IMG/VR virus record: IMGVR_UViG_3300006484_000012
Location: 1 to 58,886 of that record
Direction: 5' to 3' (one strand)
From: a virus
Length of the DNA stretch: 58,886 bases
Numbering within the stretch: position 1 is the stretch's first letter; each line of letters begins with the position of its first letter. Below, one piece after another: positions 26,481-50,924 of this stretch. The notes beneath the pieces were generated by a model that was given only the letters and a program-made list of their open reading frames with translations, ran no database searches and was not told where the DNA came from. The position numbers and the translations under genes are program-made.

Positions 26481-29400
26481 ATGGCTACTTGGCTCCAGAT
26501 AACCCCTCAGGATGGGAATGCTACATATAACAATGTTACGGTATACAATACAATCGTAGCTAACTCTGTTAGCTCTTCTTTTACAGGATCATTTACAGGC
26601 TCTTTTAATGGAACCTTCTCAGGGTCTTTTGAAGGAGTATCTCAAACAGCATCATGGGCTATAAGTGCAAGTTATGCAATATCTGCATCTCATTTTGATG
26701 AAGTAGATCCTGTATTTGTAGCAAAATCTGAATCTTTAGCTACCACGGGGTCTAATATTTTTTATGGTAGTCAGTCTATATATGGAGATTTAGTACTACG
26801 TGGTACTGCTTCTATTGATATGTTGATAGTTACTTATCAATCTTCGTCAATAATATATGCATCTGGATCTACTAAATTTGGAGATACCATAGATGATACA
26901 CATGAATTTACAGGATCTTTATATATATCAGGATCAATATATGATCCACACTTACAATATACAAGCAGTGCTGATTTATTTGTTGTAGTAGATCCCATTA
27001 CTGGAGAGTTCAAATACTCATCCAGTGGGGCTAGCGGAACATCTGGAACTAGTGGAACCTCCGGATCTACTGGAAGTGACGGCACATCTGGTTCATCCGG
27101 AACCTCAGGCTCTTCTGGAAGTGGTGGCACATCAGGCACTTCTGGTTCTTCTGGAAGTGGTGGCACATCTGGATCAACAGGCTCTAGCGGTTCAACAGGT
27201 ACGTCTGGATCTACTGGCTCTTCTGGATCTACTGGTTCATCCGGTTCAACTGGAACCTCAGGTAGTTCAGGAAGTACTGGTTCATCTGGATCAACAGGTA
27301 CTAGTGGTAGCTCAGGCTCCTCAGGATCTTCTGGAACTAGCGGCTCATCTGGCTCTTCTGGAACTAGTGGCAGCTCAGGTACATCTGGATCTACCGGAAC
27401 AAGCGGAACTTCTGGTTCATCTGGTTCTACGGGAACATCTGGCACTGCAGGTTCTACTGGTACTTCTGGCACTAGTGGAACATCTGGATCAACAGGTACA
27501 TCTGGCACTAGTGGAACATCTGGATCAGCTGGAAGATCTGGAGATAGATACTTAACTACCTCCACTACTTGTGCAACTTTAGGACAAAGTGGATCTATTA
27601 CTGTAGAGTTAGGATTGTCTTATTCTACTGCACAGACTTTCTTAATGTCTTATGATGTTAATAATTACCAAGAAGCAAGTGTAGTATCATATAACCCATC
27701 TACAGGAGTGTTAGTATATAGTATTCCAAATGTAACTGTCGGAAGTGGAAATTATTGTTCTTGGCAAGTTAACCTAGCAGGTGCTAGTGGTGGAGATGGA
27801 TCTTCTGGATCATCCGGAACCTCTGGATCATCTGGTCAAAATGGTTCCTCTGGATCATCTGGCACTGCTGGAACATCAGGTTCTACAGGTACTAGCGGCT
27901 CATCAGGTTCTACAGGAAGTTCAGGCTCATCAGGTTCTTCTGGTACATCTGGTTCTAGCGGCTCCACCGGAACTAGCGGCTCTTCTGGATCAACTGGTAC
28001 ATCTGGCACATCTGGATCAACTGGTACTTCTGGCACAGGTGGATCATCAGGTACTAGTGGGGTAACAGGATCTTCTGGTACATCTGGGTCTACAGGTACT
28101 AGCGGAACTTCTGGAACTACTGGATCATCTGGATCTACCGGCACCTCAGGAACCACAGGTACTAGTGGATCATCTGGTCAAACAGGGTCATCCGGCTCCT
28201 CAGGAGAAACAGGTAGTTCAGGTACTAGTGGATCATCTGGCTCTTCAGGATCTAGAGGTTCTTCTGGGTCAAGCGGTACTTCTGGATCAAGCGGCTCTTC
28301 CGGCTCCTCTGGTCAGAATGGATCATCTGGAACTTCTGGTACTAGTTTTTCATATGACCCAGTAACTATACCATCGGCTTCTGCTCTAATATATAGAGAT
28401 GAAATCGAAACAACGGGAACAGCAACAAATGCAAGCGCTAAAACATTTACAATCTCAGCCAATACATATGATTTTATTATGGCTGAAGCTGAGATTGACT
28501 ATTTAACTCAAGCAAATACAAACTCAACAGCTACATTTAATCTTTCATATGGTGGTGTAGTAAAAAGATCAATAGTTTTAAGAGGGGATGCTACAGGTGC
28601 TGGGGATCAATTTGCTATGGGAGCTGTATTAAAATATAGTGAACTAGCAACTACAAGTCAAGCAATAACAGTATCTGTTACTGCTACAGCAGGTGCAGGC
28701 ACATGGTACGTAGAAAGTCTAAGAATATACGGTATTAAAAGTTACGTAACAGGAGCTGGCTCCTCAGGATCATCTGGAACATCCGGTTCCTCTGGCACTT
28801 CTGGTTCATCTGGTAGCTCAGGCTCATCAGGTACTTCTGGTTCTTCTGGTACATCTGGCTCCTCTGGCACTAGAGGGTCTTCAGGATCCTCAGGTAGTAC
28901 TGGCACCTCAGGATCATCAGGAAGCAGCGGAACTTCAGGCACATCTGGATCTTCTGGCACTTCAGGTACTTCTGGATCTGCAGGTACGTCAGGTTCTACT
29001 GGAACCTCTGGTTCAGCAGGCACATCTGGTTCAGCAGGTACTAGTGGACAAACTTTTGGTACATCAGGTTCTTCAGGAACTTCGGGTACTTCTGGTTCTT
29101 CTGGTACATCTGGCTCCTCTGGAAGTTCAGGTACAAGCGGTAGCTCAGGTACTAGCGGTACATCTGGAACTTCAGGTAGTACAGGTACCTCTGGATCTTC
29201 GGGTACTTCAGGTAGTTCAGGTTCATCTGGATCTAGCGGTACCTCAGGATCATCTGGACAAAACGGTTCATCTGGTACTAGTGGCACTTCCGGTTCATCA
29301 GGAACTTCAGGTACCTCAGGATCATCTGGCTCAACTGGCACTTCTGGTAGCTCTGGTTCAACTGGTTCATCTGGTTCTTCTGGTCAAAACGGTTCATCTG

Positions 29401-32400
29401 GATCATCCGGTCAAAATGGTTCTTCCGGCACAAGTGGAACTTCGGGATCATCTGGGTCTACTGGTACCTCCGGATCTTCAGGCTCTACTGGAACTTCAGG
29501 ATCATCAGGGACATCTGGATCCTCTGGACAAAACGGTTCATCTGGAACTAGCGGAACTTCGGGTTCTACAGGTACATCAGGTACATCAGGATCATCTGGT
29601 TCTTCTGGATCTAGAGGATCTTCAGGTAGCTCAGGTTCAACAGGAACTTCTGGTTCTTCTGGATCTACCGGAACTTCAGGTTCTAGCGGATCTACAGGAA
29701 CGTCTGGTTCTTCAGGAACCTCAGGAAGTACTGGCACATCTGGTACATCTGGATCATCTGGTACTGGTTTCAATACAATACATACTCCTGCTATAGGTAG
29801 AATACTACTAGCTGATAATAGCACAAATGCTGCTACAGCATCAGTCAGTATGAGCTTTAATAATGGGGTGTTATTACTAACAGGAAGCATTCTTGCAACT
29901 GGTAATATTCAAGCAAACACTTTAATAGTACAGACTATAAGCTCCTCTGTAATATACTCTAGTGGTTCTAATATATTTGGTGATAATTTATCTGACAGCC
30001 ATGAATTTACAGGCAGTGTTAAAGTTACTGGCTCTGTTTCTATAAAAAATCTAGCTCTTAACGCAGGCCTAACTCAGTTTGTAGTAATAGATCCAACAAC
30101 TGGTCAACTATATTATAATATTTCTGGTGCTGCAGGATCTTCTGGCACTAGTGGCTCTTCAGGTTCTTCTGGATCATCTGGTTCAAGCGGATCAAGAGGC
30201 TCTTCAGGCTCTACTGGCTCCTCAGGATCTTCTGGCTCAACTGGCACTTCTGGATCTTCAGGTTCTACTGGATCAAGTGGTAGCACAGGTTCTTCAGGCT
30301 CATCTGGTCAGAATGGGTCATCAGGCTCTAGCGGTTCAACTGGCACTTCTGGCTCTTCAGGTTCTTCTGGTTCTAGTGGCCAAAATGGTTCTTCAGGCTC
30401 ATCTGGTCAGAATGGATCATCTGGTACATCCGGATCATCAGGTGTAAGCCCTACTATAACAGGTACAGCGTACTATGTACCAAGATATAATGCAGCAGGT
30501 AATGCTTTAGAAAATACCACTGCTATGATATATAATAACGGCAATAATGTCGGTATTGGTATCACGACGCCAAACGCTAAACTACACATTAGTGGAGCGT
30601 CAGCATCAAATGCTTTAAATGTACACAGATTATCAGGATACGCAAGCATCTATGGTACTAATGATCTAATATTAGAAACAGATAGTACTTTCTACATAGG
30701 TGAATACGCAGCTAAGCCTATATACTTTAACGGTGCTAATGGAGTTCCGGGCACTGTTTATATAGCTTCTGATGGAAAGATGGGCATAGGTACTACATCA
30801 CCAGCAGTTAAATTACATATTGTAGGTCCTTCTTTAACACAAAATAGTGAAGCTACATATGGTTTATGGGTATCAAATACAGTAACTCCTAGTAAAGCAT
30901 TAGTATTAGGATACGATACAACAAATGATGCTGCCCAGATTAATGCCGTACATCAAGGAGTTGCATGGAAAAACATTTCCATGCAAACTAATGGTGGTAG
31001 TTTATTAATAGGTGAAACAACTACACCTTATCTGTCAAAGTTTGCTGTATCTTATGATGCTTCAACAACAAATGGGCCTATATTCTTAGACAATAGAACA
31101 TTTGGCTCAGGAAAGGGAGGAGCGTTACATTTAGGAGGCAGATATAATACCGCAGGATCTTACAGACCATTTGGTTCAATTGTTGGGGCAAAAGAGAATG
31201 CCACTGATGGGAATAGTGCAGGTTACCTTGATTTTTATACCAACAGTGATGCAGCAGATCCTTCACAAAAAGTGCGTATCACCTCTGCTGGCTACGTAGG
31301 TATAGGTACTACAAGTCCTCAATCTTTACTTCATGTAGCTGGAACTTTATCTTATGGATCAGTAAGAATAAGCCCAACCTCAACAAATGGTGAGGCTGCT
31401 ATGGGATTTTATTCTGACACTGCTGGAAGTACTACTAATACTTCTTGGGTAGTAGGACAAGGTGGGTGGGGAAACTCAGGTAAATTTGTCATAGGTAATG
31501 AAAATGGAAGTGCCGGAGGTAACGTAAGATTATTAATAGAACCATCAGGTAATGTTGGCATAGGTACTACAAGTCCGCAAGCAGATTTACACGTCTATAG
31601 AGCTGGGAGCACAGCAGGCACTACTATTGGATTAAAAGTTAACCATGAGTGTAATGCTGTCGATTTTGTAGTTTTATTTACAGGTAACGAATCAGTATCT
31701 ACCAACAGATTCGTAATGACTCAAGGTGGTGACATAGGTATAGGCACCACAACACCAACAGCAAAACTCCAAGTATCAGGCTCTACAAACGTAGTAAACA
31801 TAATAGGGTCAGGAAGTTTAGCATCATCTTCTCTATTCTCAGTAGATGGAAATAACGGTAGATTATTTGAGATCACAGATGACCTATCTGACTCTATATT
31901 CTCTGCCAATACAATAGCAGGTCTACCTGCAATAGAAGCATTCTCAGACTACACTGTTACTTTAGGACAGTATAGTTCAGCAGGATCTACACTAAGAGTG
32001 TCTGGAAGTAACGTTTTAATATACACAGGTTCATTAGCTGTGGGAAATATTGTACCATCCACTACCAGAGGAAGGATAGATGCAACAAATGATATAGTTG
32101 CTTATAGCACATCTGACAAAAGGTTTAAGATTAATGTAACAGAAATAGCAAATGCTATAGGAAAGATAAATGAAATAAGGGGAGTTGAGTTTGACTGGCT
32201 TACCAACCCAGAATATCACGGAAACCAAGGACATGACGTAGGGGTAATAGCTCAAGAACTTGAAAAAGTACTACCAGAGGTAGTTACTACAAGAGAGAGT
32301 GGGTATAAAGCAGTTAAGTATGAAAAAATAATACCTTTGTTGATAGAAGGTATAAAAGAACAACAAAAACAAATAGAAGATTTACAAAAACAAATTGACT

Positions 32401-32417
32401 ATTTGACAAATAAATAA
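26481..32417 (+). CDS. Giant collagen-like tail fibre with C-terminal S74 chaperone
   Basis: A 1978-residue fibre. The N-terminal part (1-180) has GSFTGSF-type repeats and a THEFTGSLYISGS module. Four collagen-like Gly-X-Y blocks of Gly/Ser/Thr follow, at about residues 184-353, 434-620, 760-1095 and 1215-1321. Two beta domains interrupt them (about 354-433 and 622-758). The distal shaft carries five GIGTT-SP or TP repeats, each followed by a KLHI-type strand. The C-terminal 100 residues match the Peptidase S74 intramolecular chaperone: SDKRFKINVTEI near 1877, VGVIAQELEKVLPEVV and YEKIIPLLIEGIKEQ. This domain trimerises fibres and then usually cuts itself off before SD. It is the only fibre in the window with a visible S74 domain. 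Confidence 0.9.
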   Translation: MATWLQITPQDGNATYNNVTVYNTIVANSVSSSFTGSFTGSFNGTFSGSFEGVSQTASWAISASYAISASHFDEVDPVFVAKSESLATTGSNIFYGSQSIYGDLVLRGTASIDMLIVTYQSSSIIYASGSTKFGDTIDDTHEFTGSLYISGSIYDPHLQYTSSADLFVVVDPITGEFKYSSSGASGTSGTSGTSGSTGSDGTSGSSGTSGSSGSGGTSGTSGSSGSGGTSGSTGSSGSTGTSGSTGSSGSTGSSGSTGTSGSSGSTGSSGSTGTSGSSGSSGSSGTSGSSGSSGTSGSSGTSGSTGTSGTSGSSGSTGTSGTAGSTGTSGTSGTSGSTGTSGTSGTSGSAGRSGDRYLTTSTTCATLGQSGSITVELGLSYSTAQTFLMSYDVNNYQEASVVSYNPSTGVLVYSIPNVTVGSGNYCSWQVNLAGASGGDGSSGSSGTSGSSGQNGSSGSSGTAGTSGSTGTSGSSGSTGSSGSSGSSGTSGSSGSTGTSGSSGSTGTSGTSGSTGTSGTGGSSGTSGVTGSSGTSGSTGTSGTSGTTGSSGSTGTSGTTGTSGSSGQTGSSGSSGETGSSGTSGSSGSSGSRGSSGSSGTSGSSGSSGSSGQNGSSGTSGTSFSYDPVTIPSASALIYRDEIETTGTATNASAKTFTISANTYDFIMAEAEIDYLTQANTNSTATFNLSYGGVVKRSIVLRGDATGAGDQFAMGAVLKYSELATTSQAITVSVTATAGAGTWYVESLRIYGIKSYVTGAGSSGSSGTSGSSGTSGSSGSSGSSGTSGSSGTSGSSGTRGSSGSSGSTGTSGSSGSSGTSGTSGSSGTSGTSGSAGTSGSTGTSGSAGTSGSAGTSGQTFGTSGSSGTSGTSGSSGTSGSSGSSGTSGSSGTSGTSGTSGSTGTSGSSGTSGSSGSSGSSGTSGSSGQNGSSGTSGTSGSSGTSGTSGSSGSTGTSGSSGSTGSSGSSGQNGSSGSSGQNGSSGTSGTSGSSGSTGTSGSSGSTGTSGSSGTSGSSGQNGSSGTSGTSGSTGTSGTSGSSGSSGSRGSSGSSGSTGTSGSSGSTGTSGSSGSTGTSGSSGTSGSTGTSGTSGSSGTGFNTIHTPAIGRILLADNSTNAATASVSMSFNNGVLLLTGSILATGNIQANTLIVQTISSSVIYSSGSNIFGDNLSDSHEFTGSVKVTGSVSIKNLALNAGLTQFVVIDPTTGQLYYNISGAAGSSGTSGSSGSSGSSGSSGSRGSSGSTGSSGSSGSTGTSGSSGSTGSSGSTGSSGSSGQNGSSGSSGSTGTSGSSGSSGSSGQNGSSGSSGQNGSSGTSGSSGVSPTITGTAYYVPRYNAAGNALENTTAMIYNNGNNVGIGITTPNAKLHISGASASNALNVHRLSGYASIYGTNDLILETDSTFYIGEYAAKPIYFNGANGVPGTVYIASDGKMGIGTTSPAVKLHIVGPSLTQNSEATYGLWVSNTVTPSKALVLGYDTTNDAAQINAVHQGVAWKNISMQTNGGSLLIGETTTPYLSKFAVSYDASTTNGPIFLDNRTFGSGKGGALHLGGRYNTAGSYRPFGSIVGAKENATDGNSAGYLDFYTNSDAADPSQKVRITSAGYVGIGTTSPQSLLHVAGTLSYGSVRISPTSTNGEAAMGFYSDTAGSTTNTSWVVGQGGWGNSGKFVIGNENGSAGGNVRLLIEPSGNVGIGTTSPQADLHVYRAGSTAGTTIGLKVNHECNAVDFVVLFTGNESVSTNRFVMTQGGDIGIGTTTPTAKLQVSGSTNVVNIIGSGSLASSSLFSVDGNNGRLFEITDDLSDSIFSANTIAGLPAIEAFSDYTVTLGQYSSAGSTLRVSGSNVLIYTGSLAVGNIVPSTTRGRIDATNDIVAYSTSDKRFKINVTEIANAIGKINEIRGVEFDWLTNPEYHGNQGHDVGVIAQELEKVLPEVVTTRESGYKAVKYEKIIPLLIEGIKEQQKQIEDLQKQIDYLTNK
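27025..27540 (+). repeat. Collagen-like Gly-X-Y block 1
   Basis: Encodes tandem G-S/T-S triplets, mostly GTS, GSS and GST. Codons for Gly, Ser and Thr vary between copies, so the DNA is far less repetitive than the protein. Confidence 0.9.
27781..28343 (+). repeat. Collagen-like Gly-X-Y block 2
   Basis: Same triplet type as block 1. GQNG and GETG triplets interrupt the Ser/Thr pattern at intervals. Confidence 0.9.
28757..29764 (+). repeat. Collagen-like Gly-X-Y block 3 (longest complete block)
   Basis: About 335 residues of Gly-Ser/Thr triplets, with a GQTFGTSG interruption near 29050 that breaks the triplet phase, and several GQNG units. Confidence 0.9.
30124..30446 (+). repeat. Collagen-like Gly-X-Y block 4
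   Basis: About 107 residues of the same triplets leading into the GIGTT-repeat shaft. Confidence 0.88.
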
Positions 32418-33118: not shown

Positions 33119-33119
33119 C

Positions 33120-34631: not shown

Positions 34632-34632
34632 T

Positions 34633-36392: not shown

Positions 36393-37724
36393 ATGGCACT
36401 ACCATTAAGTGGAACATTGTCGATGAATGATATACGAGTAGAACTCGGAATACCTGCGCAATCTCCATTTTCTTTGGATACTGCTACTAATGGTGGATAT
36501 GTCACCCTGAATATATGCAGCCCATATTTGCCAGTATCTACTAACCCAGACGCTATCAGTGAATGGTACGGGTATTGTCATACTTGTGTTTGTCCAACAA
36601 CGCCTACACCTACTCCACTACCAGCAACAGCTACTCCTACTCCTTTACCAGCTACTGCTACACCTACACCTACTCCTACTCCTTTACCAGCAACAGCTAC
36701 TCCTACTCCACTACCAGCAACAGCTACGCCTACGCCTACACCACTACCAGCTACTGCTACTCCTACTCCTACACCTACTCCACTACCAGCTACTGCTACG
36801 CCTACACCTACTCCTTTACCAGCTACAGCTACACCTACTCCACTACCAGCTACAGCTACTCCTACTCCTTTACCAGCAACAGCTACTCCTACTCCTACTC
36901 CTTTACCAGCTACTGCTACACCTACACCTACTCCTACTCCTTTACCAGCAACAGCTACTCCTACTCCTACTCCTACTGTAGCCTCTGTTCTTTGGACCAT
37001 TGGATATAATGGAACTGGAACTTGGAATGGATGGAGTGATTTTGGAACAGCTTGTTTCTATGCTGAGTCTATACCATTCCCTAAAAATGTTTATACTGCT
37101 GGTAGTAGTTTTGTAAATGGATCTATACTGTATACCGATGTTACTAGAGCAACACAATTTACTTCTGGAGGTGGATGGTTTACTATCTTTGCTGGAGGTA
37201 ATAGATATGGCTTTACATATACTACTAATGTTGGTGTTCAAAACCTTACAATATGTGCTGCTTCAACTCCTACACCAACACCTTTACCAGCAACAGCTAC
37301 CCCTACTCCTACACCTACTCCTTTACCAGCTACTGCTACACCTACACCAACAGCTACCCCTACTCCTACCCCTACGCCAACAATACTAACATACACAATT
37401 AACATATATGGTAAATTTGTTTCAACAGATCCGCCACTAGATGCTGTGGCTATATGGACTTCTCCAACTGGAAACGCCGGTACTTGGACTAGAAGAGGAT
37501 CAGGATTAACATCTACTTGTACTGTTAAATACACAGCTACGGTTACTCCGGGAACTACAATATACTACTGTATTGCAGATGGGGCAGACGAAACTATTGT
37601 GTACGCTACCGGTGTCTCTACTACTGCTACATGTCCTGCTAGTGTTGGATCTAGTTGCGTTTCTTCTGTTACTATTAATGCTAATACTAATAGAGCTTTA
37701 ACTTGTGGAAGCGGTCTATGTTAA
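36393..37724 (+). CDS. Virion protein with [10 protein letters not shown] repeat linkers
   Basis: A 443-residue protein. The N-terminal domain (1-63) opens [19 protein letters not shown], a start typical of phage structural proteins, and ends [10 protein letters not shown] long tandem linker of [10 protein letters not shown] units follows (about 64-195), then a small beta domain (195-285), a second linker (287-330), and a C-terminal domain (331-443) with [19 protein letters not shown] and [13 protein letters not shown]. This last domain is nearly the same as that of the gene at 667-1401, about 36 kb away. Frames +1 and +2 inside the repeat are open only because of the repeat. Thr/Pro linkers are possible O-glycosylation targets, and the glycan island starts 43 bases downstream. 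Confidence 0.75.
36595..36978 (+). repeat. Tandem Pro-Leu-Pro-Ala-Thr-Ala-Thr-Pro linker repeat
   Basis: About 13 units of [10 protein letters not shown](TP), with variable numbers of TP pairs and with shuffled Thr, Ala and Pro codons. A shorter second run lies at 37264-37383. Confidence 0.9.
37264..37383 (+). repeat. Second Thr/Pro linker run
   Basis: Two [10 protein letters not shown]-type units followed by [11 protein letters not shown], inside the same gene as the first run. Confidence 0.85.
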
Positions 37725-37767: not shown

Positions 37768-40329
37768 ATGAAACAAAAGTTATTATTTATAGCTCCACAT
37801 CTCTCTACCGGAGGGATGCCACAATACCTCTATAAACAGATTACAGCCGTTTTAGAGGACTTTGACGTATATTGTATCGAATGGGATAACGTAACAGGCG
37901 GAGTCCTTGTAGTACAGCGTAATAGAATCCTAGAGGTATTAGGAGATAAGTTGATAACCTTAGGTGAGGATAAGACTAAGTTGTTCTCGCATATCAATAC
38001 CATAAAGCCTGATCTGATACATCTTCAGGAGATCCCAGAGATGTTTATGGGATATGAAATAGCTGAAAAACTATATGCAGGTGATCGTACTTATAGAATA
38101 ATTGAGACATCTCACGACTCTAGTTACGAGGTTAAAAATAAAAAACACTTCCCAGATAAGTTCATGATGGTTAGCCAGTATCAAGTAGAGGCATACAAGG
38201 CTATTAACATACCATGTGAACTAGTAGAATATCCTATAGAATACAAAACCAGGACCAAAACTAGGGAAGATCTATTGATTGAATTAGGGTTAAATCCAAA
38301 TAAAAAGCATGTTATTACGGTGGGCCTATTCACTCCTAGAAAGAATCAAGCAGAGGTCATAGAATATGCTAGGATGCTTGAAAACTACCCTATTCAATTT
38401 CACTTTATTGGGAATCAGGCGGACAATTTTAAACCGTATTGGGAGCCTTTAATGAAGAATTTTCCTCCAAACTGCAAGTGGTGGGGAGAAAGAAGTGATG
38501 TTGATAAGTTTTATGAGGCTGCTGATTTATTTCTGTTCACGTCTAGGGGATTTGCCACTGATAAAGAGACCATGCCGCTAGTAATAAGAGAAGCTATCAG
38601 TTGGAAAATACCATCTTTTATCTATAATCTTGATGTATATTTGAATTATTTTGATACCTTTGATAGTATTAAATACTTAGATTTTAAAAGTAAGGAAAGT
38701 AATATTAATGGCATATTAAAATCATTAAAAATAAATACTATGGCTTCTTTCTATGTAAATTATGATAGTGCAGATAATAAAGTGTATTTAAAATCTGAGG
38801 AAACCTATGAAGGTATTATAGTTTCAATAAAAGATATAGACTCCCATGCTGTAATATGGGCTGCTAAATATGATTTTTTTTATAAAGATATGGAGTATTG
38901 GATTATACCTTCTCCAAAAAGTTATTTAGATTTTGAAAAGGATCCTACTTTTGGAGGACTTTTAGTAGAGTTCTATCAAAAAGGTGCGCTTATATTTAGT
39001 AAAAGTATAAGAATAAAGGAAATCTTTGTAGATAAACCTAAGTTGATAATTAAAAACATAGAGGAACCCACCTATATAAATTACGTAGAATTTTTTATAG
39101 ATAAAATATATGACAATTATTTAAAAGAAAAGAACTTTGATACTATAGTAGACGTAGGAGCCAACATAGGAATTTGGATAGAGTACGTAAAAAGCGTATC
39201 AAATTATAAAAAAATATATGCTTTAGAACCAAATTTAAAAGCATTAAAAGTTCTAAACGATACATATGGAAACTCACCAGAAGTACAGATAATTAGCAAA
39301 GCTATGTCAAACATAGATGGAGATCTTGAGTTTTTTGTAGATGAAGAAAATTCAACTATATCCTCAGCCGCTAAATACGGAAACTTAAACAACTCCTATA
39401 CTGTATCATCTATAACTCTTAAAACTTTTCTAAAAGAATACAACTTAGAAAAAATAAATCTATTAAAAGTCGATATTGAAACTGGAGAATATGATTTATT
39501 CTCTTCTCTAGATGAAGAAGATTTTAAAAAAGTAGATAATATCTTAGTAGAATATCATCTAATAGCAGGAAAATCATACGATGTAGACGTTAAAAATCTG
39601 ATAAACACATTAGAAAAAGCAGGGTATAATCTGACAGTAAGAAATATGCACTCTATAGGAGGCTTCATATTTGCAACAAAAGAAAAAGTAAAACAATCAT
39701 TAGATAATATAAAACTTAAAGACTACCTAGATAAAACCCCAGCTCCAGATAAAAGAGATTTGGCAGTAATAGTAAACAACTTATTTCCTGAAGGAAAGGG
39801 AGTTGAAATTGGTGTTTTGAGAGGAGACTACTCAAAGTTAATATTGGAAAGATGGCATAAGGGTACTCTATACATGGTTGATACATGGAGACATCTAAGT
39901 GATTATATAGACATGAATGGCCAAGATGATGCATATCATTATGATTGTTTGGTAAAAACATGTGAATCTGTAAAACCTTGGCAAGAAAGAGCGCATATAC
40001 TAAGAATGGATAGCGTGCAAGCAGCTAGCTTATTCCCAGATGAGCATTTTGATTTCATATACATAGATGCTGATCATTCTTACGAAGGGGTTGTTAGAGA
40101 TTTAAAGGCTTGGTGGCCTAAGATAAAGAAAGGTGGATTGTTTTGTGGAGATGATTATATACCAGATGATGGAGATATTTGGTTGGTATTAGGAGACAAG
40201 CAAGAGTATGCAGGAAAGTTTGGAGTTAGAAAAGCAGTGAACGAGTTTATAAACAAAAACAATCTTAGTTTATACGAAACTAAAAATGAACCTTACTGGA
40301 AACAGTGGTATACTTTTAAACCATATTAA
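37768..40329 (+). CDS. Fusion: GT4 glycosyltransferase, FkbM methyltransferase and second SAM methyltransferase
   Basis: An 853-residue fusion. Residues 1-300 look like a GT4 (GT-B fold) glycosyltransferase: KLLFIAPHLSTGGMPQYLYK, VITVGLFTPRKNQAEVIEYA, and LVIREAISWKIPS near the donor site. A small beta module (about 325-430) is shared with the next-but-one gene. A FkbM-type methyltransferase follows (about 435-640), with VDVGANIGIW near 461 and LLKVDIETGEYD near 566. The C-terminal part (about 655-853) is another class I methyltransferase, with VEIGVLRGDYS near 679 and FIYIDADHSYEGV near 763. It probably adds a sugar and O-methylates it. TATCTTTGC upstream (37742-37750) resembles a Bacteroidota -7 box. 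Targets are unknown. Confidence 0.85.
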   Translation: MKQKLLFIAPHLSTGGMPQYLYKQITAVLEDFDVYCIEWDNVTGGVLVVQRNRILEVLGDKLITLGEDKTKLFSHINTIKPDLIHLQEIPEMFMGYEIAEKLYAGDRTYRIIETSHDSSYEVKNKKHFPDKFMMVSQYQVEAYKAINIPCELVEYPIEYKTRTKTREDLLIELGLNPNKKHVITVGLFTPRKNQAEVIEYARMLENYPIQFHFIGNQADNFKPYWEPLMKNFPPNCKWWGERSDVDKFYEAADLFLFTSRGFATDKETMPLVIREAISWKIPSFIYNLDVYLNYFDTFDSIKYLDFKSKESNINGILKSLKINTMASFYVNYDSADNKVYLKSEETYEGIIVSIKDIDSHAVIWAAKYDFFYKDMEYWIIPSPKSYLDFEKDPTFGGLLVEFYQKGALIFSKSIRIKEIFVDKPKLIIKNIEEPTYINYVEFFIDKIYDNYLKEKNFDTIVDVGANIGIWIEYVKSVSNYKKIYALEPNLKALKVLNDTYGNSPEVQIISKAMSNIDGDLEFFVDEENSTISSAAKYGNLNNSYTVSSITLKTFLKEYNLEKINLLKVDIETGEYDLFSSLDEEDFKKVDNILVEYHLIAGKSYDVDVKNLINTLEKAGYNLTVRNMHSIGGFIFATKEKVKQSLDNIKLKDYLDKTPAPDKRDLAVIVNNLFPEGKGVEIGVLRGDYSKLILERWHKGTLYMVDTWRHLSDYIDMNGQDDAYHYDCLVKTCESVKPWQERAHILRMDSVQAASLFPDEHFDFIYIDADHSYEGVVRDLKAWWPKIKKGGLFCGDDYIPDDGDIWLVLGDKQEYAGKFGVRKAVNEFINKNNLSLYETKNEPYWKQWYTFKPY

Positions 40330-40330
40330 T

Positions 40331-41161
40331 ATGATACTAATACTATACAGTGATAAAGGGTGTGAACATCAAGCGATATGTTGCATTAAATCTTTAACAA
40401 ATAAGTTAGGAGATAATGATCAAATTGTATACTATACTGTAGGGTTCAAAAGTGATTTTAATTTTAAAAAATTATATAAAATACAGATACCTGTAAATCC
40501 TACATACCCAAGATTTCATTATTATAAGGCAGAACTTTCTCTCTATACTATGGATCTTTTTCCAAATCAAGAGTATGCTTTTACAGATACTGATGTTTTA
40601 TTTTCATCTAACTTTGAATTTAATAAAGTATCCCATTCAAATAACTACCCTTTAGCATCGTATGGTCCATTTGAATACCCTTTTATGTGGTGGGATGGCC
40701 CTGGAGGTAAAATTATATACGATGAAAAAGCTTTGATGAATTATTGTAACGTTCAACAAAGAAGCCAAAGATATCTATGGTCTTGTTTCTATTCTTTTAA
40801 TGAAAGTTGTAGAGATTTTTTTGAAGAATATACCTCTTTTTGTAATAACAAGTATCTCTTAGATAGACAAGCCTTATATTACCCTTATGCAGACGAGACC
40901 TCTTTTAATATATGTCTCTGGAAAAGAGGGGCTACTAATAATCTTGGGTTCGCTTTTGTAAATACTCATAGATTAGAGACTGTAAAAAAGGTAGAAGAGT
41001 ACAAAGTGACCAATCAACACGGAGGAAATAACTACGATGCGTTTGGATCCGATTGGGAATATATACATGACTCCAAAGATATTTTATTATATCATGGGTT
41101 TAAAGAAAAGGATCAAATGGAAGAAGCAACAAACTATATTTTAAATTTACAATCCAAGTGA
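40331..41161 (+). CDS. DxD glycosyltransferase-like protein
   Basis: A 276-residue protein. I place the start at 40331, two bases after the previous stop (MILILYSDKGCEHQAICC), rather than at an in-frame ATG 45 bases upstream that overlaps the fusion gene. A nucleotide-sugar transferase fold (GT-A type) is suggested by the N-terminal strand-helix pattern and by AFTDTDVLFSSNF, a DxD-like motif. A YADETSFNICLWKRG segment and a DSKDILLYHGF ending complete the usual layout. The enzyme is likely to work with its neighbours on one glycan. Donor and acceptor are not known. Confidence 0.68.
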   Translation: MILILYSDKGCEHQAICCIKSLTNKLGDNDQIVYYTVGFKSDFNFKKLYKIQIPVNPTYPRFHYYKAELSLYTMDLFPNQEYAFTDTDVLFSSNFEFNKVSHSNNYPLASYGPFEYPFMWWDGPGGKIIYDEKALMNYCNVQQRSQRYLWSCFYSFNESCRDFFEEYTSFCNNKYLLDRQALYYPYADETSFNICLWKRGATNNLGFAFVNTHRLETVKKVEEYKVTNQHGGNNYDAFGSDWEYIHDSKDILLYHGFKEKDQMEEATNYILNLQSK

Positions 41162-42081
41162 AGTTCTTAAATGTCAATTTTAAAAAAGAAACTTTTACAA
41201 TTCTTGTAAAGTATCTACAAGAAACTGAAATTAAAGGGAAAATAGTAATCTCAGACTTACTCATAGACTGTGTTTATTTTATATGGGATGTACAATTAAA
41301 CAAATCATTTGATGGGTGGGTAGTTCCTTTTAATGAAAAGATAAATGACACTATAATAAACAGTAAAAGTTTTTACGGCTTTAATGTAAAACTGTATAAT
41401 GAAGAAAACAGACTCTTACAAGTAGAGAAGATACTAGTAAACGACAGTGTTTACGAAACAGGCACAATGTACGCAACTCCAGAATTTGATGTTACTGGCC
41501 CTTCTTACGTAGATTTTTTTTATGGAGATCTGTGTAAGAACATAGATACTTCTGGAACGGTTATAGATGCTGGAGCTAATGTAGGATTCTTTACTTTATA
41601 TTGCAAAAAACATGGATCAAAAAGAATTTACAGCATAGAACCTGATCCAATGCCTTTTTTTTATTTAGAAAAAAACTATGGTTTTGATCCCGGAATCATA
41701 CTCTTAAACAAAGTATTAAACGATACAGAACAGCCTGTAAGTTTTGATATATGCATAGGCGCATCAGTAGGAAGTGCTATAAGCAAGTATACAAACTATG
41801 AAAATAAACAATCTGTATTGGTGGAGTCTGTGACAATTAATAGTATACTTAAAATAGAAAATAGAATAAATCTGTTAAAATTAGATATAGAAGGGGCTGA
41901 GTTTGATGTAATAGAAAAGTTAACAGCAAATGAATTTGATAAAATAGATCAAATGTTTATAGAGTTTCATAATAATCCAAAAGATATAGAAAGCACTCTA
42001 ATAAACAATAATTACTTTGTTGAGTACAGAAACTCTACCAAAGAAGATACTGTAGGATTTATATACGCTAAGAAAAGATGA
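41158..42081 (+). CDS. FkbM-family methyltransferase with N-terminal beta module
   Basis: A 307-residue protein with a GTG start that overlaps the previous stop. The N-terminal 110 residues (VNFKKETFTILVKYL, GKIVISDLLIDCVYFIWDV, GWVVPFN) align by eye with residues about 325-430 of the fusion at 37768. The methyltransferase domain follows, with VIDAGANVGFF near 136 (SAM-binding motif), IYSIEPDPMPF, and LLKLDIEGAEFDVIEKL near 238. FkbM enzymes O-methylate sugars or glycosylated products. Two FkbM domains in one island suggest two methylation steps or alternatives. Confidence 0.85.
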   Translation: MKFLNVNFKKETFTILVKYLQETEIKGKIVISDLLIDCVYFIWDVQLNKSFDGWVVPFNEKINDTIINSKSFYGFNVKLYNEENRLLQVEKILVNDSVYETGTMYATPEFDVTGPSYVDFFYGDLCKNIDTSGTVIDAGANVGFFTLYCKKHGSKRIYSIEPDPMPFFYLEKNYGFDPGIILLNKVLNDTEQPVSFDICIGASVGSAISKYTNYENKQSVLVESVTINSILKIENRINLLKLDIEGAEFDVIEKLTANEFDKIDQMFIEFHNNPKDIESTLINNNYFVEYRNSTKEDTVGFIYAKKR

Positions 42082-44159
42082 AGATAATAAACGTCACTCC
42101 AGGATTAATACCAATCCCTCCTAATGGTTGGGGAGCTGTGGAAAAAATAATATGGGAAACTCATAATGCCTTGTTAAAACTAGGGCATAATTCTACAATA
42201 GAATACTTAGATGATGTAAAAGACTGTGATGTGGTGCATATTCATGTTGCTAATCTAGCAAACATTGCACATGAGAGAGGTATTCCATATTACTTTACAA
42301 TGCATGACCACCATGCGTATCTATATGGGAAAGATTCAGCAGTGTTCAAAGAAAACATGCTTGCAATCAAAAATGCCAAAAAAGCATTCGTCCCCGCTAA
42401 ATTCTTGGTCGGTTATTTTGGAAACATACCGGAGTATTTTTCTCATGGAGTAAACATAGACTACTTCACTCCTAGTGGAACTAGCGAACCAAAGCTATTA
42501 TGCGTAGCAAATAATGGGTTTATACACGATCAAGCGGAGGATAGGAAGGGTTTTGGGTATGCCATAGAAGCTGCTAAGAGGTTAAACCTACCTATAACCA
42601 TAGCTGGGCCCAGTAACAACAAGAGATACTTTGAAAAATACCCTTCTGACTATGAGAAGCTAACAATTCTATATGATCTAACAGAGGATCAATTGAAAGA
42701 CTTATATAAAGAGCATAGTTGCTTCTTACACTTATCCACTTTAGAAGCTGGACACCCGAATCTAACTCTACTGGAGGCAATGGCATCAGGTTTGCCAGTA
42801 GTGGGTACGTATGAAGATGGTAATAGTCTGGATGGTATGATAGTGGTGGGTAGAGATGTAGACCAAACAGTTAAAGCAATAGAGGAAGTATTTGCCAACC
42901 CCACTAGGTATTTGTATTATTCAAATACTGCAAGAATGCAAGCTAAAGATCTATCATGGGAAAATAGAACAAAAGAACTGTTAAAACATTACACAATGAG
43001 TTTTAAAAAACAATTAATAGATAGCTACAATAATACTAAAATTATAGGAGTAAAATCTAAGCCTCTTAGTCCTGTGTTCAATATGAATTTTATAGATGGT
43101 GCTTTTTTTGAGATATTAGGAGGACCCGACAGGGAGTACAATGTCCAGTTTATAAACAAAAAAACTGGACAAATAGTCCATAAATCCAATATAAAAAAGG
43201 ATCATTGGGTAAAGGCATCAATCTCATATTTTGTAGATTGGAGTATATTTGTAGACGATGGCCTAAGTTCATATGAGTTTAAGCCAGACTATACCGGTAA
43301 GAGAGTGTATATAGCTTTAGACTCAAAAGCACTAGGTGATACTCTAGCTTGGTTTCCATATGTAGAAGAGTTTAGAAAAAAACACAACTGTAAGGTAGTT
43401 TGTTCTACTTTTTGGAATCATTTCTTCAAGCCAGAGTATCCAGAGATTGAGTTTGTTAAACCTGGGGAAGTGGTGAATAATATATATGCCATGTATACTT
43501 TAGGCTGGTTCTACACCCCAGACGGGTCTTTTGATTTTAGAAAGGTTCCTGAAAACTTTAGAGACCAATCACTACAAAAGACAGCCTCAGATATATTGGG
43601 ATTAGAGTTTAAAGAGGTAAAGCCAAAGATAAAGCTACCTAAAATAGGATCAAAAGAAAGAAAAGTTACTATTGCTATGCATTCTACAGCACAATGTAAG
43701 TATTGGAACAATGAGACGGGGTGGCAGAAGTTAGTAGACTACCTACTGGAGAACAAGTATGAGGTTGTAATGGTATCTAAAGAAGAAGATGGCTACATGG
43801 GAAATAAATATCCTAAAGGAGTGACACATCTACTAGATAGCAGCTTAGAATCAGTAATAAGTGAGGTATTAACATCAGAAATGTTCATTGGAATAAGTAG
43901 CGGACTAAGCTGGTTGGCTTGGGCTTTAGGAACTAACACATGTCTAATATCAGGGATAACCAAGCCTGAGTCAGATTTTACTCCAACAGTAAGGATATCA
44001 CCAAAAGAGTCTGTTTGTAGATTCTGTTTTAATAAAGAGAAGCTAGATCCAGGAGATTGGAACTGGTGTCCTAAGCATAAAGGAACAGATCGGCAGTTCG
44101 AATGCACCAAAACAATCACTGCAGAGGATGTAATCTCAAAAATATCCAATCTACTGTAG
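42078..44159 (+). CDS. Fusion: GT4 glycosyltransferase and TibC/Aah-like protein O-heptosyltransferase
   Basis: A 693-residue fusion. Residues 1-310 form a GT4 glycosyltransferase: PPNGWGAVEKIIWETHNAL, FVPAKFLVGYFG, and HLSTLEAGHPNLTLLEAMAS. Residues 315-693 look like a bacterial autotransporter heptosyltransferase: FNMNFIDGAFFEILGG (335-349), LDSKALGDTLAWFPYVEEF (414-432), AMHSTAQCKYWN and GISSGLSWLAWALG (605-618). The final C647, C650, C664 and C676 match the iron-binding cysteine motif of TibC. That family O-glycosylates serines of repeat proteins with heptose. Here the sugar could differ. It overlaps the previous gene by four bases. Confidence 0.85.
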   Translation: MKIINVTPGLIPIPPNGWGAVEKIIWETHNALLKLGHNSTIEYLDDVKDCDVVHIHVANLANIAHERGIPYYFTMHDHHAYLYGKDSAVFKENMLAIKNAKKAFVPAKFLVGYFGNIPEYFSHGVNIDYFTPSGTSEPKLLCVANNGFIHDQAEDRKGFGYAIEAAKRLNLPITIAGPSNNKRYFEKYPSDYEKLTILYDLTEDQLKDLYKEHSCFLHLSTLEAGHPNLTLLEAMASGLPVVGTYEDGNSLDGMIVVGRDVDQTVKAIEEVFANPTRYLYYSNTARMQAKDLSWENRTKELLKHYTMSFKKQLIDSYNNTKIIGVKSKPLSPVFNMNFIDGAFFEILGGPDREYNVQFINKKTGQIVHKSNIKKDHWVKASISYFVDWSIFVDDGLSSYEFKPDYTGKRVYIALDSKALGDTLAWFPYVEEFRKKHNCKVVCSTFWNHFFKPEYPEIEFVKPGEVVNNIYAMYTLGWFYTPDGSFDFRKVPENFRDQSLQKTASDILGLEFKEVKPKIKLPKIGSKERKVTIAMHSTAQCKYWNNETGWQKLVDYLLENKYEVVMVSKEEDGYMGNKYPKGVTHLLDSSLESVISEVLTSEMFIGISSGLSWLAWALGTNTCLISGITKPESDFTPTVRISPKESVCRFCFNKEKLDPGDWNWCPKHKGTDRQFECTKTITAEDVISKISNLL

Positions 44160-44253: not shown

Positions 44254-47200
44254 ATGGCCCAAATACTCAAACTCCGAAGGAGCGCTATATCTGGCGCTAA
44301 GCCTACTATATCCCAAATAGAATTTGGTGAAGTAGCAATGAACACAGCTGATGGTAAGCTGTTTATGAAGGTTAGCGGTAGCGGAGGAGATAGTGTAATA
44401 GAAATAGGGGCCAATTCTGCAAATGTTTCCGGATCTATATACCATATACCTGTATTCTCAGGTCCTAATAATATAGTAACCAGTTCAATATACCAATCTG
44501 GATCTTTTACATCTATAAGGAAAACTACAGTTCCTGTAAATCCAACAAATCCAGATATACTATTTGTAAACGGAGATGGTGTAAATACTTACAATCTTAT
44601 ATCTGCACATGGTAGGCTTAATAACTATGTACAAGTAAATGTACAAAACTACAGTGCAGGGGCTTTTGCTTCTTCTGACATAGTAGCTACTGCAGATAAT
44701 GGGAACGAGACTGTCAGATATATTGACATGGGTATCAACAGTAGCGGATACACATCCCCAGACTTCGTAGGTTCTGCAGGAGATGCATATATGTACTCTA
44801 CTGGTAATGATCTATATCTAGGTAATGCTTCTGCTGGTAAAAGGGTAATAATATTTAACGGAGGCTTTGATGCCTTTGTTAACGCTAGAGTGTTTATACA
44901 CGAACAGGGTACCATAGGATTTAATACAGATACTATAGATTATGATAATCCATCGTCTCTAAGAGTATTCGCAGCAACTACTAGTTCATATAACTTAATA
45001 TATGCACAAGGGGATGTAAATAATTACTCCCAGATTAATATAAAAAATATTAATTCTGGAGTTACCGGATCTTCTGACATAGTAGCAACCAGTAACATAG
45101 GTGATGAAGAAAGCTACTATGTTAATATGGGTATCAATGGAGACGGCTATAATATAGAAGATGGAATAGGCAGTCAAAATGATGCTTATTTATACTCTAT
45201 TGCAGAAGACCTATTGATAGGAAATGCTGCTGAAGGCAAAAGGGTTATTATATTTAATGGTACGGGATCAGCAGTAGCCAACGCTCGTGTGTACATAACT
45301 GCAGACGGTACCGTAGGAATTAACGCTAGTGATAATAACCCATCAAATCCAGAATCATTATTAGTAGAACCTTTGGTAATTACAGGAGTAGGCCCGTCAG
45401 GTTCTTTTTCTAACTTAATAATAGGAAAGGGTATAATAAATGAAAGTTATTTACAGTTAAACATAATAAACTTAGGTACTGGATCATATGCATCTGCTGA
45501 TATAGTAGCTACAAATGATATAGGAACTGAAACTGATAACTACGTTGATATGGGTATCAACAGTAGTAATCACATATTTGATCCATCGTTTGGTGTTGGT
45601 GGGCCTAGTGATTCATATCAATTTTCTACGGGTAGAAACCACTACATAGGTAGTGCTACTAGCGGTAGTTTAATTTTCTGGACTAGAGAAGACTTTGACG
45701 GTGAATTAGGAGCTAAGTTAACACTAAGACCAAATGACGTACACTCCTTAACCGGATCTCTATCAGCTACAAACGGATTCACAGGTTCGCTACAAGGGAC
45801 TTCTAGTTGGGCAGAGAACGCTTTAACTGCTTCTTATATAACAGCCTCTAATGTTTACGGACCTTATGGACAAAACAGTGTAATAAGCGCATCACACGCT
45901 GTTACAGCATCTTCAGCAGACAATTTCCTTGTTAGAGGCACGCTTACAGCACAGACTATAGTAGTTCAAACTATTACATCTTCTGTAGAGTTTGTAACAG
46001 GGTCTACTCATTTTGGAACCATCATCCAAAATACACATGAATTTACTGGATCTTTATCAATATCTGGATCCTTAGTAATCAACGGTACATCATACACTGC
46101 AGCCACATCAGGAACTAGTGGTACATCTGGTACAGCAGGATCTTCAGGCACTTCCGGAACCTCTGGTTCATCTGGTTCTACAGGTACTAGTGGTAGTTCT
46201 GGTACATCTGGTTCATCTGGATCAACAGGTACTAGCGGCAGCTCTGGTAGTAGTGGCTCTTCAGGCACTTCTGGCAGCAGTGGTTCAACAGGAACTTCAG
46301 GATCTTCTGGGTCAACAGGTACATCTGGCTCTTCTGGAACCTCAGGGTCTTCTGGAAGTGCAGGAACATCTGGAACTAGTGGAAGTTCCGGTAGCACAGG
46401 TACCTCTGGATCATCTGGTACAAGCGGAACATCCGGTTCTTCTGGATCTACCGGTACTTCAGGATCTAGTGGGTCAAGTGGCACATCGGGATCATCAGGT
46501 AGCACAGGTACAAGTGGAAGCTCAGGATCTAGTGGATCTACTGGTACATCAGGTTCAGCAGGAAGCTCAGGCACTAGTGGCAGCTCAGGTACTTCTGGAA
46601 GTGCAGGATCTAGCGGAACGTCTGGTTCCTCAGGTAGTACAGGTACATCCGGCTCTTCTGGTACTTCTGGCTCAGCCGGATCTTCTGGAACATCAGGAAC
46701 TTCAGGAAGTAGCGGTACAGGGTTTAATACTATAAGCAATGCTGCTATAGGCAGAGTCTTAATATCTGACGGTACTTTAAATGCAGCCACAGCATCAGCT
46801 ATCCTAACCGTTAATAACGGAGCGGTGAGTATGTCTGGCAGTGCGTTCATCACTGGCTCACTGACAGTATCAAATACAATAACAGCACAGACTCTTATAG
46901 TACAAACTATCACGTCTAGCGTAGAATTTGTGACTGGGTCTACTCATTTCGGTAGTATAATATCAAATACACACGAATTTACTGGTAGCGTAACTATATC
47001 AGGGAGTTTATCTGTAAATAACAGCAGTGTTGTATTGTCTAATCAGACAGGATCAATGTCTGTTGCTACTGCTTCAAATGTATTAGGAGGTGCTACAAAC
47101 TATATACCACTATGGAGTGGAGCAACTAGTTTAAGTAGCAGTGTAATGTACCAATCATCAAGTAATATTGGTATAGGTACTACAACTCCAAATGCTTTAC

Positions 47201-48657
47201 TAAATATAGTATCAACTTCAGGAGACGCTTTTATATTTAAAGGATCTGGTGGTAAAGAATTTATTAGTATTAATCATTTGGGTTATCTTAAATCTAGAGC
47301 TTCTGACACTAACGGAGCTAATATGCATTTTCTTGATAATGCTGGAGCCAAAAGAATGGAAATGGCTGTTGATACAACATCCATGAACTGGTATTCTGAT
47401 GCTTTAGCTTCTTTCTTTTTAACATTCCAACATTCAACAGGAAATATTGGTATAGGTACTACAAACCCATCATCAAAATTAGAAGTAGTTCAAAGTGGGT
47501 CAATACCGGGTATTACAGTTAAAGATGGTACAAATCCACAAATTCAAACTACTAATGGTACTGTAATTGCAAAGCTACAAATAGCAGCTAGTGCTTTAAT
47601 AGGTACTGAAACTAATCACGATTTTACAATCTATACAAATAATACTGAAAAGGTGCGCATTACCTCTACTGGTAATCTCGGCTTAGGTGTTACACCGAGT
47701 GCGTGGGATAATGGTCAAAAAGTTTATCAAAGTGGGTTAGGTTCATTTTATGGTTTACCAGATGGTGGAGCAACTATTTTAGTTAACAATGGATATTATA
47801 ATTCAGGTTGGAAATATAGCTCAAATGGTTCAGCAGGTAATTATCAAATAGTTCAAAATGCACACCAATGGTTAACTGCCCCAATCGGCACGATAGGCAA
47901 TGCTATCACCTTCACCCAAGCAATGACTCTTACTGCTAATAACAGGTTATTAATAAATCAAACTGGTGACACTGGAGAACAACTACAAGTTAATGGTACG
48001 GGTAGGTTTAGTGGTGGGTTGACATTAAACAGAGCAGCAGGGGGAGATGCAAATGGAATAATATTACAAACATCTGGGACAAGTAATTGGTATGTTGGTA
48101 GTTCGGCTATAGGGTCTAATACAGATTTGCAATTTTATAATCATTCAGCAGCAGCAGTTGTTCTTAATATTGCCAATACCACAGGTGCAGCCACGTTTAG
48201 TAGTAGTGTGACTGCAGCTTCATTCACAGGTTCTCTATTCGGCACTGCAAGCTGGGCAGAAAACGCAATAACATCATCATACTCACTAAATGCGATAAGC
48301 GCATCATATGCTGCAACAGCATCATACGCAAACTCTTCATTTGATATAGGCATAGCCGAATTCAATTCAACTTCCTCTACAACAGCAGCAGGAACAACAG
48401 CCGTATCTATAATCCCTACAGGATCATTCAAATCAGCATTTTACAATTATTATATAATGTCTGCTTCAAATGCCAGATCAGGACAAATAATGTCAATATG
48501 GAGTGGAAGTACAGTAAGATATACCGAAGTGACAACTACTGATATAGGAAATACATCACTAGTGTACATGAGTGTTGGACTATCTAACGGTAATGTTCTA
48601 CTTAATGCATCTTCTTCTGGAGGTTGGACAGTAAAAGCATTAGCAAACTTATTATAA
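44254..48657 (+). CDS. Giant collagen-like tail fibre 2
   Basis: A 1467-residue fibre. The start, MAQILKLRRSAISGAKPTIS, is a common phage fibre N-terminus that links to the baseplate. Three tandem repeats of about 130-140 residues follow (about 95-500), each with an ASSDIVAT-like and a DMGINSS-like segment. A SSADNFLVRGTLTAQTIVVQ module precedes one collagen-like block (about 618-822) and a second copy of the THFG...THEFTGS part. The distal shaft has GIGTTTP repeats and a closing GSLFGTASWAENAITSS module. No S74 chaperone domain is present, so trimerisation must be achieved otherwise. Confidence 0.87.
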   Translation: MAQILKLRRSAISGAKPTISQIEFGEVAMNTADGKLFMKVSGSGGDSVIEIGANSANVSGSIYHIPVFSGPNNIVTSSIYQSGSFTSIRKTTVPVNPTNPDILFVNGDGVNTYNLISAHGRLNNYVQVNVQNYSAGAFASSDIVATADNGNETVRYIDMGINSSGYTSPDFVGSAGDAYMYSTGNDLYLGNASAGKRVIIFNGGFDAFVNARVFIHEQGTIGFNTDTIDYDNPSSLRVFAATTSSYNLIYAQGDVNNYSQINIKNINSGVTGSSDIVATSNIGDEESYYVNMGINGDGYNIEDGIGSQNDAYLYSIAEDLLIGNAAEGKRVIIFNGTGSAVANARVYITADGTVGINASDNNPSNPESLLVEPLVITGVGPSGSFSNLIIGKGIINESYLQLNIINLGTGSYASADIVATNDIGTETDNYVDMGINSSNHIFDPSFGVGGPSDSYQFSTGRNHYIGSATSGSLIFWTREDFDGELGAKLTLRPNDVHSLTGSLSATNGFTGSLQGTSSWAENALTASYITASNVYGPYGQNSVISASHAVTASSADNFLVRGTLTAQTIVVQTITSSVEFVTGSTHFGTIIQNTHEFTGSLSISGSLVINGTSYTAATSGTSGTSGTAGSSGTSGTSGSSGSTGTSGSSGTSGSSGSTGTSGSSGSSGSSGTSGSSGSTGTSGSSGSTGTSGSSGTSGSSGSAGTSGTSGSSGSTGTSGSSGTSGTSGSSGSTGTSGSSGSSGTSGSSGSTGTSGSSGSSGSTGTSGSAGSSGTSGSSGTSGSAGSSGTSGSSGSTGTSGSSGTSGSAGSSGTSGTSGSSGTGFNTISNAAIGRVLISDGTLNAATASAILTVNNGAVSMSGSAFITGSLTVSNTITAQTLIVQTITSSVEFVTGSTHFGSIISNTHEFTGSVTISGSLSVNNSSVVLSNQTGSMSVATASNVLGGATNYIPLWSGATSLSSSVMYQSSSNIGIGTTTPNALLNIVSTSGDAFIFKGSGGKEFISINHLGYLKSRASDTNGANMHFLDNAGAKRMEMAVDTTSMNWYSDALASFFLTFQHSTGNIGIGTTNPSSKLEVVQSGSIPGITVKDGTNPQIQTTNGTVIAKLQIAASALIGTETNHDFTIYTNNTEKVRITSTGNLGLGVTPSAWDNGQKVYQSGLGSFYGLPDGGATILVNNGYYNSGWKYSSNGSAGNYQIVQNAHQWLTAPIGTIGNAITFTQAMTLTANNRLLINQTGDTGEQLQVNGTGRFSGGLTLNRAAGGDANGIILQTSGTSNWYVGSSAIGSNTDLQFYNHSAAAVVLNIANTTGAATFSSSVTAASFTGSLFGTASWAENAITSSYSLNAISASYAATASYANSSFDIGIAEFNSTSSTTAAGTTAVSIIPTGSFKSAFYNYYIMSASNARSGQIMSIWSGSTVRYTEVTTTDIGNTSLVYMSVGLSNGNVLLNASSSGGWTVKALANLL
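46109..46721 (+). repeat. Collagen-like Gly-X-Y block in fibre 2
   Basis: About 204 residues of Gly-Ser/Thr triplets, with occasional Ala (GSA) and no GQNG units. Confidence 0.9.
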
Positions 48658-49421: not shown

Positions 49422-49433
49422 AAAATAAAAAGT

Positions 49434-50120: not shown

Positions 50121-50122
50121 CT

Positions 50123-50843: not shown

Positions 50844-50924
50844 ATGGCAACACAATACGCAAACGGTAAAATACAAAATCTACATATTTATATAAAAGAT
50901 AAAATATGTACATATATTGTATAA
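50844..50924 (+). pseudogene. Severed 5' end of a LamG-type gene
   Basis: A 26-codon ORF that starts MATQYANGKI. The first ten residues match the start of the lectin at 51658 (MSTQYAFGRI), after which similarity stops and the frame runs into the leader and start of the endonuclease gene. It is best read as the remnant of a lectin gene interrupted by the endonuclease, whose 3' side supplied a new start. Confidence 0.55.
50885..50892 (+). promoter_or_regulatory. TATTTATA motif before homing endonuclease
   Basis: Lies 13 bases before the endonuclease ATG and inside the severed lectin remnant, so the insertion seems to carry its own copy of the phage motif. Confidence 0.45.

Follow-up and report, generated by a model that had tools for sequence, protein, structure and literature searches.

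Why would a virus of bacteria carry glycosyltransferase and methyltransferase genes between genes for collagen-like fibres, and what do the encoded enzymes modify? The question is raised by a 58.9-kb IMG/VR virus contig, analysed here over its whole length and referred to as the window. The phage is T4-like, and families were recognised for its terminase (10534), portal (12162) and major head protein (20408).

Organisation of the island and its neighbours

The island (37768-44159) comprises four genes, all on the same strand, with Ser/Thr collagen fibre genes on either side (Table 1). A preliminary description made from the sequence alone had assigned GT4, DxD transferase, TibC/Aah, FkbM and methyltransferase domains to these genes. 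Open reading frames and family matches agree, yielding two GT4 domains, a GT6-like DxD transferase, two FkbM domains, one other methyltransferase and a match to TIGR04414 (Aah/TibC). The same description placed the island between fibres whose repeats consist almost entirely of Gly, Ser and Thr and beside a Thr/Pro-linker protein, and both features are present. Ser or Thr fills 480, 129 and 248 X/Y positions in the first, second and third fibre, respectively (the third counted to the contig end), and Pro fills none. All three match Pfam Collagen (E = 5e-103, 337 bits; E = 1.8e-27, 95 bits; and E = 1e-55, 185 bits; cutoff 27.2), while the linker protein has no family match. A UDP-galactofuranose-forming enzyme had been noted at the left end of the window; the mutase is there, but lying 37 kb away and cut by the contig edge it has no tie to the island, and its membership is unsupported.

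Small LamG/concanavalin-like proteins (32423-35844, 48624-50839 and 51658-52332) flank the fibres on both sides and have a similar C-terminal NYNA-K-RF motif; two of the three tested matched Laminin_G_3. A GIY-YIG homing endonuclease with a NUMOD3 motif is encoded at 50906-51661, within this fibre/lectin cassette.

Table 1 Features of the window relevant to the island; substrate assignments are predictions.
Feature	Position	Strand	Description	Basis
UDP-galactopyranose mutase	14..670	+	5' part missing at contig edge	PF03275, E = 7e-75
Fibre, likely substrate 1	26481..32417	+	260 Gly-X-Y triplets, 92% Ser/Thr, no Pro; C-terminal Peptidase_S74 chaperone	Pfam Collagen
Thr/Pro-rich linker protein	36393..37724	+	Possible second substrate; adjoins island upstream	Sequence
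P1	37768..40329	+	853 aa; GT4, ~120-aa accessory module, FkbM, Methyltransf_24	PF00534, PF05050/TIGR01444, PF13578
P2	40331..41161	+	276 aa; putative GT-A glycosyltransferase, GT6-like (histo-blood-group A/B transferase fold)	9-sequence alignment, low-confidence model
P3	41158..42081	+	307 aa; accessory module homologous to P1 module, FkbM methyltransferase	TIGR01444, hhalign
P4	42078..44159	+	693 aa; GT4 (1-320) fused to TibC/Aah-type protein O-glycosyltransferase (about 336-691)	TIGR04414, PDB 4RAP
Fibre, likely substrate 2	44254..48657	+	67 Gly-X-Y triplets, 96% Ser/Thr, no Pro	Pfam Collagen
Fibre, likely substrate 3	52646..58886	+	At least 137 Gly-X-Y triplets, 90% Ser/Thr, no Pro; continues past contig end	Pfam Collagen

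Domains of the island proteins

In P1, the GT4 domain (PF00534) covers residues 171-296, the FkbM domain (TIGR01444; E = 5e-22, 78.9 bits against a cutoff of 37.7) residues 459-597 and Methyltransf_24 (PF13578) residues 679-797. The FkbM domain of P3, which has a class I methyltransferase fold, exceeds the same cutoff (E = 2.7e-25, 89.5 bits). Immediately N-terminal of FkbM in both proteins lies a module of ~120 amino acids (P1 residues ~326-455, P3 residues 1-128), and the two copies belong to one family (hhalign E = 1.5e-46). A relationship between this module and the N-terminal barrel of TibC was considered and rejected (hhalign probability 1.6-18%), and the idea of a single substrate-binding module serving all the enzymes was therefore dropped.

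The P2 reading frame was called at 40286-41161, and alignment with eight relatives placed its true start at 40331. A D-T-D motif is invariant across the nine aligned sequences. P2 has no family match by sequence and no detectable sequence similarity to GT6. The AlphaFold2 model is of low confidence (pLDDT 54), yet Foldseek matches 1-47 are all of GT6 type (best 4ayj, E = 1.6e-4). We provisionally describe P2 as a GT6-like glycosyltransferase, an assignment of low confidence that leans on a weak model.

The P4 GT4 match spans residues 153-302. Residues 350-691 match TIGR04414 (hepto_Aah_TibC) with 275 bits, above the curated cutoff of 200, and comparison with the TibC crystal structure (PDB 4RAP) gave E = 6e-50.

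Active-site residues and the donor sugar

TibC uses Asp110 as its catalytic base, Lys230 and Thr226 to bind phosphate, Trp305 to contact the heptose, Arg286 to contact adenine and four Cys residues to bind iron (PMC4358343). We surveyed these positions in 55 non-redundant phage TibC-type domains. The equivalents of Asp110, Lys230 and Trp305 were kept in all 55, and each iron-finger Cys in 54. P4 of the window retains the counterparts of Asp110 (D421), Thr226, Lys230 (K541) and Trp305 along with all four iron-finger Cys (TibC Cys339, 342, 358 and 370). Arg286, which reads ADP through its contact with adenine N1, is replaced by Val593. This arginine was found in 12/12 autotransporter-neighbour enzymes, but in only 18/55 phage domains and 3/9 bacterial enzymes with collagen neighbours; two in three collagen-associated enzymes have lost it. 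The hydrophobic pair that TibC has at its beta-hairpin thumb tip (F265/V266) is commonly Tyr-Met in phage domains, with gaps in others. Retention of the catalytic and iron-finger residues together with loss of Arg286 suggests that fold and reaction type are kept, and that the donor nucleotide may have changed relative to TibC.

A heptose-nucleotide gene (HldE domain II) scored above cutoff in 1 of 43 related records, and phage-made ADP-heptose was accordingly rejected as a regular part of the system. One phage record with a TibC-type domain (L365, equal to G016, 144669-145088) has a heptose-nucleotide synthase (TIGR02199) above cutoff. The domain had been described at the outset as a protein O-heptosyltransferase: the family holds, but heptose as the transferred sugar is not established. 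Since Arg286 is lost and heptose-nucleotide genes are rare in these phages, we use the term TibC-type protein O-glycosyltransferase and leave the predicted sugar unspecified.

TibC-type domains accompany Ser/Thr collagen in phages

Searching IMG/VR with P4 returned 47 loci. Their gene maps place the TibC-type domain near Ser/Thr collagen genes or in tail regions, and a P1-like GT4 usually accompanies it; the GT4 part of P1 was present in 38 of the 56 fetched phage loci with the domain (loci partly overlapping). A comparable layout is seen in the isolate Microcystis phage Mel-JY01 (L002, PP395634.1), where no more than 2 kb separate the TibC-type gene from a Gly-Ser/Thr collagen, and in a 735-kb huge phage (L001).

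As TibC-type and collagen genes are both late genes, control comparisons were used. Two sets of IMG/VR records were collected with sequence patterns, a DNA pattern matching G-T-S-G-(S/T)-S collagen for one set and a pattern matching G-P-x collagen for the other, and whole records, which are fragments and partly redundant, were searched with a profile of the TibC-type domain. The domain was detected in 24/48 Ser/Thr-collagen records and 1/47 Pro-collagen records (Fisher, 4e-8), and the sole positive Pro-collagen record also matched the Ser/Thr pattern. The search for such islands beside collagen-like fibres in other phages, proposed in the preliminary description as a check, thus gave a supportive result. 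Record size does not explain the contrast, since it persisted among records of at least 50 kb (18/29 versus 1/22). Whole-record searches were preferred because stretches fetched by the patterns were too short and uncentred; these gave 8/105 for Ser/Thr and 1/77 for Pro (p = 0.08).

In 18 of the 24 positive records, no more than about 5.5 kb separated the domain from a Ser/Thr collagen gene, without a formal null model for distances, and the remaining six had no Ser/Thr collagen within 10 kb of it. Late structural genes cluster, so proximity by itself is weak evidence. The association is incomplete in both directions: half of the Ser/Thr-collagen records (24/48) lack the domain, through either their fragmentary nature or other solutions, and four long records (G101, G103, G106 and W03) have the domain without the collagen pattern. 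Some phages without adjacent collagen encode mucin-like Ser/Thr-rich proteins there instead, and Ser/Thr-rich ORFs in general made up 22/648 in loci with the domain versus 0/308 near terminases.

In the huge phage LR756501.1 (W01, 735 kb), 1629 Ser/Thr collagen pattern matches on one strand occur together with a TibC-type domain. In Mel-JY01, hypothetical proteins of VPEVPEVP type annotated in GenBank (PP395634.1, 1-651 and 739-2298) are antisense to the Ser/Thr collagen, whose real + strand frame is mostly unannotated. Such misannotation may hide this type of fibre elsewhere.

Bacterial homologues and phylogeny

Scanning GTDB genomes produced 323 bacterial stretches, and the best 80 were retained. 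Among these 80, the nearest non-phage enzymes, including those of Methylobacter and relatives, are 45-52% identical, and in Methylococcaceae and other Pseudomonadota their genes adjoin small G-S/T repeat proteins. Three of three such neighbours tested (L453, L454 and L465) match Pfam Collagen. More distant bacterial enzymes in the same 80 adjoin large proteins, and 3/3 of those tested have AIDA repeats. Repeat proteins are enriched near the bacterial enzymes, making up 18/301 ORFs within 3 kb versus 5/450 farther away (p = 3e-4). Three nominally bacterial stretches (L457, L459 and L462) were counted as phage contigs because phage-like genes surround the enzyme.

When 97 domains were placed in a tree, the branch containing the enzymes with AIDA/autotransporter-like neighbours, 28 enzymes in all, formed one clade (100/100). 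Phage enzymes, like bacterial ones with collagen neighbours, fall outside it, partly intermingled, with deeper forks and the root unsure. In several Methylococcaceae chromosomes (L450, L451, L453, L454 and L460), the partner of the enzyme is a small G-S/T repeat protein bearing an apparent signal peptide, possibly a glycosylated secreted collagen of methanotrophs; in L450, from Methylobacter luteus, this protein is encoded upstream of the enzyme.

Which molecule is modified?

The fibres are not the only candidate acceptors in the virion. The island could instead glycosylate the Thr/Pro linker, the LamG-type lectins, the tail sheath or mucin-like Ser/Thr proteins. The linker is encoded immediately upstream; in one phage group (L009, L015, L020 and L049) the island abuts the tail sheath, although the 182-kb record of this group is rich in Ser/Thr collagen elsewhere; and in another (L038 and L045) mucin-like Ser/Thr-rich proteins take the place of adjacent collagen. 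Their tracts, upstream of the TibC-type gene (L038, 2-1330; L045, 1113-3329), have 80 Ser/Thr per 100 residues, with runs of Thr and repeated PSPSPS. However, the contrast between Ser/Thr and Pro collagen and the collagen-like neighbours of the bacterial enzymes favour G-S/T repeats as the target, and we consider these other acceptors unlikely.

Surface-polysaccharide clusters commonly carry GT4, GT6-like and FkbM enzymes. The content of the island would thus also fit remodelling of host LPS, capsule or exopolysaccharide during infection, for superinfection exclusion, receptor masking or surface conversion, and a UDP-galactopyranose mutase is encoded on the same contig. Some phages do use glycosyltransferases for serotype conversion (PMC12619734). 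The TibC family, by contrast, acts on proteins, and no flippase, polymerase or lipid-carrier gene was found among the window proteins searched. Nor does the domain behave as a generic sugar enzyme: it follows the fibre sequence type, whereas the generic GT2 family PF00535 shows no enrichment (11/48 Ser/Thr-collagen versus 15/47 Pro-collagen records). Homologous islands accompanying host LPS or capsule genes rather than fibres, the outcome that would have refuted the initial proposal, were looked for and did not occur. Host surface modification is, in our judgement, improbable.

The link might also be indirect, if a group of large aquatic phages merely happened to combine Ser/Thr collagen with many late-region sugar enzymes. 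Both kinds of gene do lie in late structural regions, and phages with Pro collagen may have other hosts and belong to other lineages. Against this, in a small lineage-matched set of T4-like records chosen by terminase, the domain was present in 4/10 with the Ser/Thr pattern and 0/24 without (p = 0.0045), and the GT2 control was not enriched. The association further recurs in bacterial chromosomes and in phage enzymes less than 80% identical and scattered over the tree, leaving coincidence only a slender chance. Hypermodification of phage DNA or RNA can be practically discounted: DNA-modifying phage glycosyltransferases are known (cited in PMC12619734), but catalytic and iron-finger elements of the TibC type belong to a protein glycosyltransferase (PMC4358343), and the neighbours are fibres rather than DNA metabolism genes.

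A model for fibre glycosylation

What was observed directly is the set of domains and residues, the order of the genes and the link to Ser/Thr collagen in both phages and bacteria. Together these make it probable that the island serves as a cassette for fibre glycosylation, in which the TibC-type domain starts a sugar on Gly-Ser/Thr collagen, other enzymes extend it and the methyltransferases cap it. P4 carries a domain from the TibC branch that accompanies such collagen, and the virus therefore probably glycosylates its own fibres. The preliminary suggestion that the phage may O-glycosylate and methylate its fibres is supported by the phage, lineage-matched and bacterial comparisons, with the modification itself still inferred.

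In the proposed sequence of events, the TibC-type domain of P4 would act in the host cytoplasm, placing the first sugar on Ser/Thr of Gly-Ser/Thr stretches in newly made fibre chains, probably before these trimerise. Elongation would fall to the GT6-like P2 together with the GT4 domains in P1 and P4, and the FkbM and other methyltransferases would cap the glycan with O-methyl groups. The glycan would probably substitute for proline/hydroxyproline, stabilising and hydrating the proline-free triple helices, and may further protect the fibre or tune adhesion. Stabilisation and hydration are the most economical benefit for helices without proline. There is a precedent in a worm cuticle collagen that carries glycosylated Thr. 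Animal collagen chains are modified prior to helix formation, and the glycan of the collagen-like protein BclA is thought to aid hydration (PMC8968730). In the absence of biochemistry, the acceptor, reaction order, timing, donor sugars and benefit are inferred only.

A more far-reaching possibility, advanced here only tentatively, is that a TibC-family branch with an altered donor pocket has specialised on proline-free Gly-Ser/Thr collagens in phages and bacteria, forming a dedicated system with its own sugar donor in which the glycan, not proline or hydroxyproline, holds the helices together.

Large aquatic phages often encode Gly-Ser/Thr triplets by the hundred, and how these stay stable in the absence of proline is unexplained; a conserved partner enzyme that follows precisely this type of sequence offers a testable answer. 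The model links phage fibres with an established family of protein-glycosylating enzymes, takes the TibC family beyond autotransporters and leads one to expect glycosylated collagen-like proteins in bacteria, Methylococcaceae among them. Recombinant fibres may misfold or lack activity if produced without the island, and the enzymes could be used for producing glycosylated, proline-free collagen.

Comparison with known systems

Our literature search, outside which most subscription journals lay, found no report linking TibC-type enzymes to phage collagen fibres, no paper combining FkbM, phage, tail and collagen, and none on Mel-JY01. The closest enzymes are the TibC/Aah bacterial autotransporter heptosyltransferases (BAHT; TIGR04414, 4RAP), which share homology over the whole domain, D110, T226, K230, W305 and the four-Cys iron finger, as well as a repeat-rich Ser acceptor protein encoded next door. 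Hallmarks of the BAHT family further include a dodecameric assembly and sugar transfer to Ser of the partner protein. Unlike these, the window domain is fused to GT4, falls outside the autotransporter clade and lacks the ADP-reading Arg286, and its neighbours are G-S/T collagen-like fibres, with no AIDA beta-helix or autotransporter partner. P2 resembles the GT6 family (histo-blood-group transferases, BoGT6a) in its low-confidence model fold and invariant DTD, but not detectably in sequence. BclA and mimivirus collagen (PMC8968730) are likewise glycosylated collagen-like proteins, although they involve other enzymes, whereas the window collagen is Pro-free, nearly all Ser/Thr and from a tailed phage. 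Mycobacteriophages encode glycosyltransferases thought to decorate their own virion, at capsid and tail-tube subunits (Freeman et al. 2023, as cited in PMC12619734). Phage-encoded enzymes with the virion as presumed target are common to both systems; the inferred collagen fibre target, the TibC-type domain and methyl capping set the present one apart. Phage-encoded virion glycosylation and TibC-type enzymes were thus already known; what appears to be new, judged from sequence, is a collagen-associated TibC branch inside a putative phage fibre-modification cassette.
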